Source: Ruminococcus flavefaciens (lineage in GTDB: Bacteria > Bacillota > Clostridia > Oscillospirales > Ruminococcaceae). Taken from it: a stretch of 64,000 bases of DNA. The position numbers were made by a program, and so were the translations under genes. Shown in pieces: positions 38,943 to 40,912 of this stretch (the first letter of the stretch is position 1; each line of letters opens with the position of its first letter). The notes under the pieces are model-generated. The model was given only the letters and a program-made list of their open reading frames with translations. It searched no databases and was not told the origin of the DNA. The stretch spans positions 713,796 to 777,795 of the forward strand of contig JAMPIL010000001.1 of assembly GCA_023662725.1 (NCBI GenBank). The letters run 5' to 3'.

Positions 38943-39036
38943 TTATAAATGATTCGGATGCCCTCGCAGATATACAATCTATGATTTGCTTACTGCGTAT
39001 CGGGCAATTTTACCACAAACTCTTCTGAGTTTATAA
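38943..39036 (+). repeat. Imperfect palindrome in the metallophosphoesterase leader
   Basis: TTATAAA (38943-38949) and TTTATAA (39030-39036) form the outer arms. Inside, TGCCC (38959-38963) pairs with GGGCA near 39002-39006, and CGCAG with CTGCG. The centre is AT-rich. It looks like a long hairpin leader similar in style, though not in sequence, to the ackA one. Confidence 0.4.
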
Positions 39037-39073
39037 CAAAATAGAAGAAAAGAAAATCTTGGAGGTAATAAAA

Positions 39074-39739
39074 TTGATTTTCGTAACCGGAGATACTCAC
39101 GGCGATATAAGCCGATTCAAACAACCTGAATTCAAAAAAATCAAACGTGGAGATACACTTATTATCTGCGGAGATTTCGGTTTTTTCTGGAATGGCTCGA
39201 GAAAAGAAAAAAACGATATTAAAAAACTTGCTTCACAAAATTATACCGTCGCTTTTGTTGATGGCTGCCACGAAAATTTCGACATTCTTGAAAGTTTTCC
39301 CGTTACCGATTGGCATGGAGGAAAAGCAAGAATCATTTCAGGTAATATCATTCATCTTATGCGAGGTCAGGTTTATAATATAGAAGATAAAAAAATTTTC
39401 ACATTCGGAGGCGGTCATAGTCAGGATTACGATTTCCGGCGTGACAGCGAAAACTGGTGGCAAAGAGAGCGTCCGACTCATGATGAGATTCGTGAAGCAA
39501 TTCATAATCTTGAGATGAACGATAATAAAGTTGATTATATTATAACTCACGAACCGCCGGCTTCACTGAAAGACTGTCTTAACGTTGATGTGCTTCAGCG
39601 TCTTGAAGTTCACGCTTTTTTCGAGGACATTATCAAAACCTGCGATTATAAGAAATGGTATTTCGGAAAATGTCACATTGATAAGCACATTCCTATAAAG
39701 TTTTACTCAATTTTTAACAATGTAACTCCGCTTAAATAA
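39074..39739 (+). CDS. Calcineurin-like metallophosphoesterase
   Basis: About 221 aa with metal-ligand motifs in order: GDTHGD (Asp-x-His), IICGDFGFFWNG (GD), VDGCHENFD (a GNHE variant), a conserved FGGGHSQDYDFR segment, and ITHEPP. These support a two-metal phosphodiesterase or phosphatase. The GNHE motif reads GCHE, an Asn-to-Cys change at a position that is normally a metal ligand, so metal binding may differ. The start is a TTG at 39074 with GGAGG eight bases upstream; no ATG fits. Substrate unknown. The twin cysteine peptides follow 119 bases downstream. Confidence 0.85.
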   Translation: MIFVTGDTHGDISRFKQPEFKKIKRGDTLIICGDFGFFWNGSRKEKNDIKKLASQNYTVAFVDGCHENFDILESFPVTDWHGGKARIISGNIIHLMRGQVYNIEDKKIFTFGGGHSQDYDFRRDSENWWQRERPTHDEIREAIHNLEMNDNKVDYIITHEPPASLKDCLNVDVLQRLEVHAFFEDIIKTCDYKKWYFGKCHIDKHIPIKFYSIFNNVTPLK

Positions 39740-39768
39740 TTGGAAAATGTTTTGCCATTATTTTTGCA

Positions 39769-39797
39769 TTGATTTAACGAAACAGCTATGCTATAAT
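39769..39797 (+). promoter_or_regulatory. Sigma-A-type promoter of the twin-peptide unit
   Basis: TTGATT (39769-39774), exactly 17 bases, TATAAT (39792-39797). The expected start is near 39804, directly at an ATTGTTCC arm that pairs with GGAACAAT at 39830-39837, forming a hairpin in the 5' leader or an operator just after the start site. Confidence 0.75.
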
Positions 39798-39858
39798 ATA
39801 ATTGTTCCAAGAGAGACAACAATTCAAAAGGAACAATACTTAATAGGAGGCTTCGATC

Positions 39859-39918
39859 ATGTGTTGCAATAACATTTGGAAAATGCTCTGCGAGATGTTC
39901 GGAATTTGCTGCAAATAA
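39859..39918 (+). CDS. 19-aa cysteine-rich peptide, copy 1
   Basis: ATG to TAA encodes MCCNNIWKMLCEMFGICCK. It has five cysteines in 19 residues (positions 2, 3, 11, 17, 18), two vicinal CC pairs and a hydrophobic, possibly helical middle. The ribosome site AGGAGG lies eight bases upstream. The ORF is repeated 105 bases later with an identical product. Promoter, ribosome sites and terminator are all on this strand, and the codons differ only silently between copies. No export signal or leader cleavage site is visible. I know no family for it; metal or redox cofactor binding, a signalling peptide, or a membrane-active peptide are all possible. Confidence 0.65.
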   Translation: MCCNNIWKMLCEMFGICCK

Positions 39919-39963
39919 GTGACAGCAATAAATCTTTGCAAATAAAAATAGGAGGTTTCAATT

Positions 39964-40023
39964 ATGTGCTGCAATAACATTTGGAAAATGCTCTGCGAGA
40001 TGTTCGGAATTTGCTGCAAATAA
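39964..40023 (+). CDS. 19-aa cysteine-rich peptide, copy 2
   Basis: A tandem duplicate of the ORF at 39859. The peptide is identical; within the ORF the only base change is TGT to TGC at codon 2, which is synonymous. It has its own AGGAGG ribosome site eight bases upstream. The flanking bases (about 20 before and 25 after) are also repeated with several changes, so the duplication is not brand new while the coding part stayed almost unchanged. The downstream terminator begins 22 bases later. Confidence 0.65.
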   Translation: MCCNNIWKMLCEMFGICCK

Positions 40024-40044
40024 GAGACAATAATAAATCTACGC

Positions 40045-40089
40045 AAAACGAAAAGCTGTTCGGATTTTTTCCGGACAGCTTTTCGTTTT
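40045..40089. terminator. Strong bidirectional terminator between the twin peptides and rnfB
   Basis: AAAACGAAAAGCTGTTCGGA pairs with TCCGGACAGCTTTTCGTTTT over 20 positions with one G-T pair. T-rich arms on both strands let it end the peptide transcript and the convergent rnf operon. Confidence 0.9.
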
Positions 40090-40096
40090 ATTAAAA

Positions 40097-40897
40097 CTAC
40101 ATATTGGTTTTATCGCAGTTATGAATAACCTTAACCGGACAAGCCTGCATACAAACTCCGCAGTTTGTACACTTATCATAGTCTATAGAAGCGTGGAAAT
40201 TTTCAACCGTAATTGCTCCGGAAGGACATTTCTTCTCACAGATCTTACAACCGATACATCCGTTTTTACAACTCAGCTTTGTCTCTTTTCCGTTGGCAGC
40301 AGAAGAACAGAGAACGTCGATATGCTTTGCCATTGGCTTTATGGATATAAGTCCATTAGGACATACCGCAGCACACTGTCCGCACGCTCCGCAAAGCGAC
40401 GGAATAATTTTTGCAACACCATCAATAATTTTAACGGCGTCATGCTCGCAGACGGCTGCACAATCGCCTAAACCGATACATCCGAATTTGCAGGCTCCGT
40501 TTCCTCCGTAAAAACGTTTAACTGCCTTGCATGATTGAACACCACTAAACTCAAATGCAGTCTGAGTCGCATTGCAGTCACCGTTGCAGTGAACAACAGC
40601 AACCATCGGAACAACATCAGCGGCGGCAGTTCCGAGAACTTCGGCGATTTTTCCGGCAGCGTCCGCTCCTCCGGGACGGCAGAGATTCGTTGCTGCTCCG
40701 TTATTTACAATAGCGGCGGCATAATCCGCACATCCGGCATATCCGCAGGCTCCGCAATTTGCCTGGGGTAAAGCCTCGCCGATCTTCTCGATTCGTTCGT
40801 CACCCTCAACATGAAAAACCTTTGCGGCAACGGTCAGCAGAACCCCTGCCAGCATTCCGCAAACGCCGACAACGAGCGCAGGAATAAAATATGTCAT
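40097..40897 (-). CDS. rnfB: Rnf complex ferredoxin subunit RnfB
   Basis: A 266-aa Fe-S protein with an N-terminal membrane anchor (residues 4-25) and an ANCGACGYAGCADYA cluster motif. Three further sets of CxxCxxCxxxCP/CxxC-type 4Fe-4S motifs follow (LCGACGQCAAVCP, CIGCKICEKKCP, CTNCGVCMQACP). RnfB is thought to accept electrons from soluble ferredoxin. Last gene of the operon, sharing a bidirectional terminator with the twin peptide unit. Confidence 0.96.
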   Translation of the reverse strand: MTYFIPALVVGVCGMLAGVLLTVAAKVFHVEGDERIEKIGEALPQANCGACGYAGCADYAAAIVNNGAATNLCRPGGADAAGKIAEVLGTAAADVVPMVAVVHCNGDCNATQTAFEFSGVQSCKAVKRFYGGNGACKFGCIGLGDCAAVCEHDAVKIIDGVAKIIPSLCGACGQCAAVCPNGLISIKPMAKHIDVLCSSAANGKETKLSCKNGCIGCKICEKKCPSGAITVENFHASIDYDKCTNCGVCMQACPVKVIHNCDKTNM

Positions 40898-40912
40898 ATC
40901 TGCTCTACCTCC

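Follow-up and report, generated by a model that had tools for sequence, protein, structure and literature searches.

In Ruminococcus flavefaciens (GenBank assembly GCA_023662725.1, contig JAMPIL010000001.1, positions 713,796 to 777,795; this stretch of 64,000 nucleotides is referred to below as the window), about 350 bases between a phosphoesterase-like ORF and a convergent rnfB-like gene contain a gene for a cysteine-rich peptide of 19 residues, in two copies. This locus raises the question whether so small a unit is a gene whose product is the peptide itself, a regulatory RNA carrying incidental ORFs, or an accessory of one of its neighbours. The question can be approached through the relatives of the unit, i.e., through what they keep of its signals, its reading frame and its surroundings.

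Anatomy of the unit in the window

The original prediction described a consensus-like promoter, a leader hairpin, two ORFs each preceded by AGGAGG and a terminator, and all these elements are present in the window (Table 1). Translation of both ORFs gives the same 19-residue cysteine-rich peptide, as had been claimed. The alignment of relatives places the beginning of the conserved unit at about position 39741, which is earlier than was first stated. The copies form a 101-nt repeat with nine differences, one of them, a silent one, within the 60-nt ORF versus eight in the 41 flanking bases (Fisher p = 0.003); the earlier observation of a single silent change in the ORF and more changes in the flanks thus stands.

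Table 1. Features of the micropeptide unit and its immediate surroundings (positions in the window).
Feature	Positions	Strand	Basis or remark
Upstream ORF, phosphoesterase-like	39059–39739		Weak Pfam match, E = 0.0019, short of the curated cut-off
Conserved promoter-proximal element, TGGAAAATGTTTTGCCA then TTATTTTTGCA	39741–39768	+	Abuts and overlaps the -35 from the 5' side; alignment
Promoter-like site, TTGATT, 17 nt, TATAAT with TG before it	39769–39797	+	Sequence; TATAAT conserved
-35 TTGATT; -10 TATAAT	39769–39774; 39792–39797	+	Sequence
Leader hairpin	39801–39837	+	Fold; covariation
Leader stem arms, ATTGTTCC and GGAACAAT	39801–39808; 39830–39837	+	
Shine-Dalgarno sequence of copy 1, AGGAGG	39845–39850	+	Kept in relatives
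ORF 1, MCCNNIWKMLCEMFGICCK	39859–39918 including stop	+	Translation; family-level coding selection
Shine-Dalgarno sequence of copy 2, AGGAGG	39950–39955	+	Sequence
ORF 2, same peptide MCCNNIWKMLCEMFGICCK	39964–40023 including stop	+	One silent difference from ORF 1
Intrinsic-terminator-like hairpin, 20-nt arms 40045–40064 and 40070–40089	40045–40089	+	Fold; nearly symmetrical
Mechanical ORF of 68 aa	39840–40046	-	Opposite both copies

We take the upstream ORF to be phosphoesterase-like from its motifs; the gene downstream, convergent with the unit, is presumably RnfB, and Fe-S domains were found in it. The terminator hairpin lies between these convergent units and may serve the rnfB/rnf operon as well. 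The 68-aa ORF on the minus strand looks like a by-product of the repeat, since the third-position bias described below belongs to the plus frame.

By themselves, the local signals are weak. A promoter scan gave 2 sites versus 1.7 expected in shuffled sequences, a promoter and terminator scan of the window listed no terminator at the unit, and the fold of the unit has a z-score of -4.0, for much of which the terminator accounts. As these signals are insufficient, the case that the unit is more than chance is based on the relatives, which keep the promoter, the hairpin, the Shine-Dalgarno sequence, the frame and the peptide. Within its own genome the peptide has two strong matches, namely both copies in the window, and a third match at E = 0.46; one additional weak match of the covariance model (E = 0.027) contained no such peptide on reading.

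Distribution of the unit

The unit is common in the genus and sparse in other genera and in three other families of the order. With a covariance model built from 89 matches (R2) and a threshold of E ≤ 0.01, 86 of 125 genus genomes have the unit and 39 have no match; among the 68 good-quality genomes it was found in 51. At E ≤ 1e-4, 80 of the 125 remain. An earlier model built from 30 units (R1) matched 83 of 125 at E ≤ 0.1. Note that members of the family went into both models, and the counts are therefore not independent of them. An independent count comes from the search with the 19-residue peptide alone, which gave matches in 31 of 125 genomes at E ≤ 0.001; at E ≤ 1 the figure rises to 73 of 125, but many of the weaker matches are noise. 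The exact DNA pattern is present in contigs of R. flavefaciens YAD2003, R. flavefaciens RUG12238 and Ruminococcus sp. RGIG4067.

At the family level, R1 matched 20 of 297 genomes at E ≤ 0.1 (three of them within the genus), and 277 of 297 were without a match. Eight non-genus family genomes carry a fitting peptide (G289, G383, G234, G358, G241, G316, G237 and G161), the matches in G194 and G255 contain none, and the weak matches in G126, G162, G217, G242, G303, G408 and G411 are outside the peptide count. At the order level, 13 of 345 genomes matched R2 at E ≤ 0.01, and beyond the genus fitting peptides were found in G643, G439, G504 and G448, from three further families. A third model (R3), which includes these four, matched 6 of 150 genomes in each of two of these families, with fitting peptides in G439, G504 and G1052 of the one and in G643, G1099, G672, G1172 and G1160 of the other. 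The peptide of a further locus, L227, is doubtful (37 aa), and the matches L221 and L222 from the further-family searches contain no matching peptide. At the class level, R2 had matches in 5 of 245 genomes, and these added no convincing peptide; the order- and class-level matches L203, L204, L206, L209–L211, L107 and L212–L215 likewise have no matching peptide. Since 39 of the genus genomes and 277 of the family genomes are without a match, the gene is either dispensable or diverged past detection in them.

Conservation and shape of the peptide

The 86 tabulated units encode 71 distinct peptides, 85 of the 86 being 16–22 aa long and one 27 aa. This set leaves out the second match in G358, G194 and the second match in G000, where there is no such peptide, as well as G108 and G027, which lie at contig ends; the 87-row table of neighbours used below retains G108. 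Examples are MCNIFKMLCDLFKCCGC, MCCNELFKLICNLFKNCGC, MCFNNFAELYAMLCQIFGLGC, MCNFDCGSLWQLLCLLFGRCC and MNCKDLLELLRKCLGLC. Cysteine makes up 26% of the residues after Met and directly follows Met in 85 of 86 units. All 86 peptides have at least three cysteines (80 of 86 at least four) and all have one within the last five residues; cysteines are found near both ends and usually in the middle too. The net charge is between -1 and +2 across the 86 units, and N5 and G15 are invariant among 22 peptides.

The reading frame is conserved, and the peptide is under purifying selection. Among 25 non-overlapping pairs of similar units, equal in length and at most 20% different (a comparison that is not a phylogenetic test), pN/pS is 0.13; the 96 differences are distributed over codon positions 1, 2 and 3 as 16, 12 and 68, with an excess of synonymous changes (binomial p = 1.6e-21). 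Selection on the peptide had been suspected from the two copies in the window; the relatives support it, as they keep the ORF frame and their substitutions are biased towards silent ones.

The peptides are also periodic. The hydrophobic moment has its maximum at 100 degrees per residue, and for each of the 69 distinct peptides tested it is higher than the mean of shuffled sequences, with a mean z of 2.3 (G289 and G025, with a wrong or extra ORF, were left out of this set and of the pN/pS set). In the window peptide, Cys3, Cys11 and Cys18 lie within an 80-degree sector of the helix. In the main set, the cysteines are slightly biased to the hydrophobic side (mean cosine 0.15 versus 0.00, sd 0.04), 50% of them being on that half, and the central cysteine lies towards the polar edge of the helix; ten order-level and extra peptides show a stronger bias to the hydrophobic side.

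Promoter element, leader hairpin and terminator in the family

Among 30 aligned units, the CCA and ATTGA of the upstream element and the TATAAT of the -10 are invariant. A -35 word like TTGCATTGA (TTG[CT]ATTGA-like) is present in 62 of 86 units, CCA just upstream of it in 71, and both in 50. The long promoter-element pattern has one match in the own genome of the window. In 720 kb of loci, which partly overlap and were nearly all picked around units or candidate units, the combined promoter pattern occurs only at units, 42 by filter and one more at L160, itself a unit. The CCA and TTGCATTGA element, which overlaps the -35 (39741–39774), is a possible activator site. A strict upstream palindrome, GGNAA-N4-7-TTNCC, was found in 16 of 86 units versus 0.06 expected from shuffles; because the palindrome is limited to these 16 units, we speak of a conserved element rather than of a proven operator. 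The element is also present in some other genera, and the more distant families have, by eye, GTTACAA-like repeats near the -10 in its place.

The leader hairpin is expected to sit at the 5' end of the transcript, the start site being placed from the -10. Two-sided changes were seen in seven of its eight pairs, with 34 such cells versus a shuffled mean of 9.7 in an alignment that had been fitted to the tested structure; 83.5% of the cells are paired versus 36–60% when the structure is slid, although 45 of 57 sequences leave one particular pair of the eight open. In predicted mRNAs with an assumed start site, the Shine-Dalgarno sequence has a mean unpaired probability of 0.35, exceeding 0.5 in 23% of 84. 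A hairpin followed by a T-run was found after 80 of 86 units, at a median of 8 bases past the stop (own script, no shuffle control); it was not found for G029 (a contig end), G098, G003, G006, G095 and G124. Tandem copies occur in 14 of 86 units, after removal of G289 and G025 as ORF miscalls. In L118 and L128 the whole unit including the promoter is duplicated, about 210 bases apart, whereas in the window the ORF only is duplicated.

Genomic neighbourhood

Neighbours were clustered, and the names TatD-like, ABC-2-like, Rnf and the like were assigned by eye. In 57 of 87 units the gene directly upstream is TspO-like (PF03073 for the representative), and in 13 of 87 it is phosphoesterase-like; of the 79 genus rows, 72 have one or both upstream, one of these 72 with the phosphoesterase-like gene downstream instead. 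Much of the genus (L111–L199) shows a recurring arrangement in which a phosphoesterase-like gene is followed by a TspO-like gene and then by the micropeptide unit. The window has no TspO gene next to the unit, and the one TspO match of this genome is on another contig (C22). TspO is present in 97 of 125 genus genomes, in 72 of the 80 unit-bearing ones versus 25 of 45 others (p = 2.8e-5), an association in which shared descent and incomplete genomes act as confounders; no TspO match was found in 8 of the 80.

Downstream, Rnf-cluster genes are the commonest neighbour: 25 of 87 units have them no more than four ORFs away, 23 of these with an rnfB-like gene. Counted over the units with at least two downstream ORFs, this is 25 of 75. 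Three further units have an RnfD-like gene in the other orientation. Other downstream genes are TatD-like (7 of 87) and ABC-2-like (6 of 87), and in L136, L137, L140, L141, L143 and L145 the ABC-2-like permease gene is convergent with the unit. Outside the genus, neither TspO nor Rnf adjoins any of the eight units, and the surroundings of these units and of the order-level ones differ. The unit is therefore best seen as an independent gene whose placement within the genus is mostly inherited, and the shared neighbours look like vertical inheritance there. This agrees with the original prediction of a self-contained unit. The functional link to Rnf that it offered as a guess found no support, as Rnf is not kept with the unit, and a role specific to Rnf was set aside on the same counts.

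What the peptide may do

The conservation points to a peptide that counts by virtue of its helix and its cysteines. Our best explanation, a tentative one drawn from sequence, is an independently transcribed housekeeping micropeptide that acts inside the cell as a cysteine-bearing amphipathic helix, with metal or thiol chemistry suggested by the cysteines. The unit would be a chromosomal microgene with the peptide itself as its product. Judging from the anatomy, the promoter, the 5' stem-loop and AGGAGG would give a short, stable message making much peptide, although the Shine-Dalgarno sequence is only partly open in the predicted mRNA, and the tandem copies fit selection for peptide dose. Because there is no room for a signal or leader sequence, the peptide would probably stay in the cytosol or on the inner membrane face as a short amphipathic helix. 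The cysteines would be used chemically, most likely for metal binding or for thiol/disulfide switching, perhaps once the helices have associated with one another or have bound to a partner protein. A more far-reaching version, which we regard as rather doubtful, would make the family nature's version of the designed cysteine-helix maquettes. Such a ribosomally made helix of 16–22 residues, abundant and self-assembling or membrane-docked, would hold a metal or an Fe-S cluster or serve as a thiol redox buffer, with a housekeeping role throughout an anaerobic gut lineage.

The main rival, a leaderless secreted membrane-active peptide like the phenol-soluble modulins (PSMs), appears unlikely to us. 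The amphipathic periodicity, the net charge and the tandem ORFs, each with its own Shine-Dalgarno sequence, would suit such a peptide, as would the ABC-2-like transporter genes that follow the unit in six rows; however, more than a quarter of the residues are cysteines, selection is purifying, and the clustered neighbours in the other 81 rows include no exporter that stays with the unit. An RNA with the ORF as a secondary matter, i.e., a dual-function or purely regulatory small RNA in which the hairpins count, is improbable. The compact transcript, the covarying 5' hairpin and the strong fold, with its large contribution from the terminator, are consistent with it, but selection acts on codons, little is conserved by eye between stop and terminator, and nothing at the unit reached the Rfam gathering score. 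We give as little credence to a partner of a neighbour, be it TspO, the phosphoesterase-like protein or Rnf: these genes recur beside the unit, and TspO and the unit are associated within the genus, yet the association is confounded as stated, some unit-bearing genomes are without TspO, and the units outside the genus have neither TspO nor Rnf alongside. As TspO is not obligatory and the window genome has its own TspO on another contig, this partnership is kept as a rival only.

Still less probable is an intracellular or exported signalling peptide; the product is very short, conserved and present in tandem copies, but there is no pro-sequence, and no receptor or peptidase gene is evident by eye among the conserved neighbours. 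The toxin of a type I toxin-antitoxin pair would likewise be short and partly hydrophobic, could occur in tandem copies and could have a Shine-Dalgarno sequence partly paired in the predictions, and we consider it quite improbable: a consensus scan of the window gave no promoter-like site on the minus strand in 39700–40150, the periodicity is amphipathic, and the kept place within the genus speaks against a mobile toxin. The 355 bases of the unit had no blastn match in phages or plasmids either, which is a weak argument as such searches miss diverged short genes. Hardly credible, finally, is the leader peptide of a cysteine-responsive attenuator. Short polycysteine ORFs in mycobacteria reportedly act in this way, and here, too, consecutive Cys codons are followed by a terminator. 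However, no co-directional gene directly follows the terminator in the window, where the rnfB-like gene is convergent, 36 of 87 rows have a convergent rnfB-, TatD- or ABC-2-like gene no more than three ORFs downstream, and residues other than cysteine, N5 and G15 among them, are constrained too.

Comparison with databases and described systems

In Rfam, region 39000–40900 of the window gave nine matches, all below the gathering score, and seven loci gave two tRNAs only and none at the unit. A resemblance to the SR1 sRNA (E = 0.012, 26.6 bits versus a gathering score of 45) was treated as chance. A 22-row profile had no PDB match at E ≤ 5, a search in which its 18 positions have little power. 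Ordinary annotation overlooks genes this small, as do most profile tools; of 22 peptides, a single one (20 aa) had the length needed for a scan against Pfam, NCBIfam, PHROG and PADLOC, with no significant match (best Pfam E = 0.22).

The housekeeping micropeptide that we favour would have metal binders among its nearest analogues. SmtA, MymT and Csp3 range from about 45 to more than 100 aa. Such bacterial metallothioneins and copper storage proteins are cytosolic cysteine-rich metal binders, Csp forming a four-helix bundle (PMC7558416). The likeness is in the high cysteine content; the peptides of the present family, however, are much shorter (16–22 aa) and hydrophobic, and their cysteines are not mainly on the hydrophobic face. 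A Csp-like buried cysteine face was weakened as a candidate by the even share of cysteines on the hydrophobic half and by the central cysteine towards the polar edge, and cysteines so little concentrated on the hydrophobic face argue against a simple buried metal core. If metal binding or thiol control is true, the peptide would be a minimal natural metallopeptide; it is short enough to be synthesised, which makes its function directly testable.

PSMs are often encoded by several small ORFs on one transcript and, to our knowledge, carry no cysteine. The staphylococcal PSMs are described as secreted without a signal peptide and as forming amphipathic helices (PMC4235685). A very short, leaderless amphipathic helix is what they share with the present peptides, of which 85 of 86 are, judged by length, too short for a signal peptide; the cysteine content, the purifying selection and the lack of an exporter kept beside most units set the two apart.

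The family, found in rumen and gut ruminococci and some of their relatives, combines coding selection, a covarying leader, a recurring promoter element and fixed cysteines. In an open literature library no description of it was found, and six member peptide strings occurred in none of its papers. A MetaRibo-Seq study of the gut reports very small, unannotated proteins specific to Clostridiales, of which two showed the highest translation in its data (PMC7324362). Those two have 29 aa, compared with 16–22 aa here, and are likened by description only; the family could already be an unnamed cluster in a set of this type.
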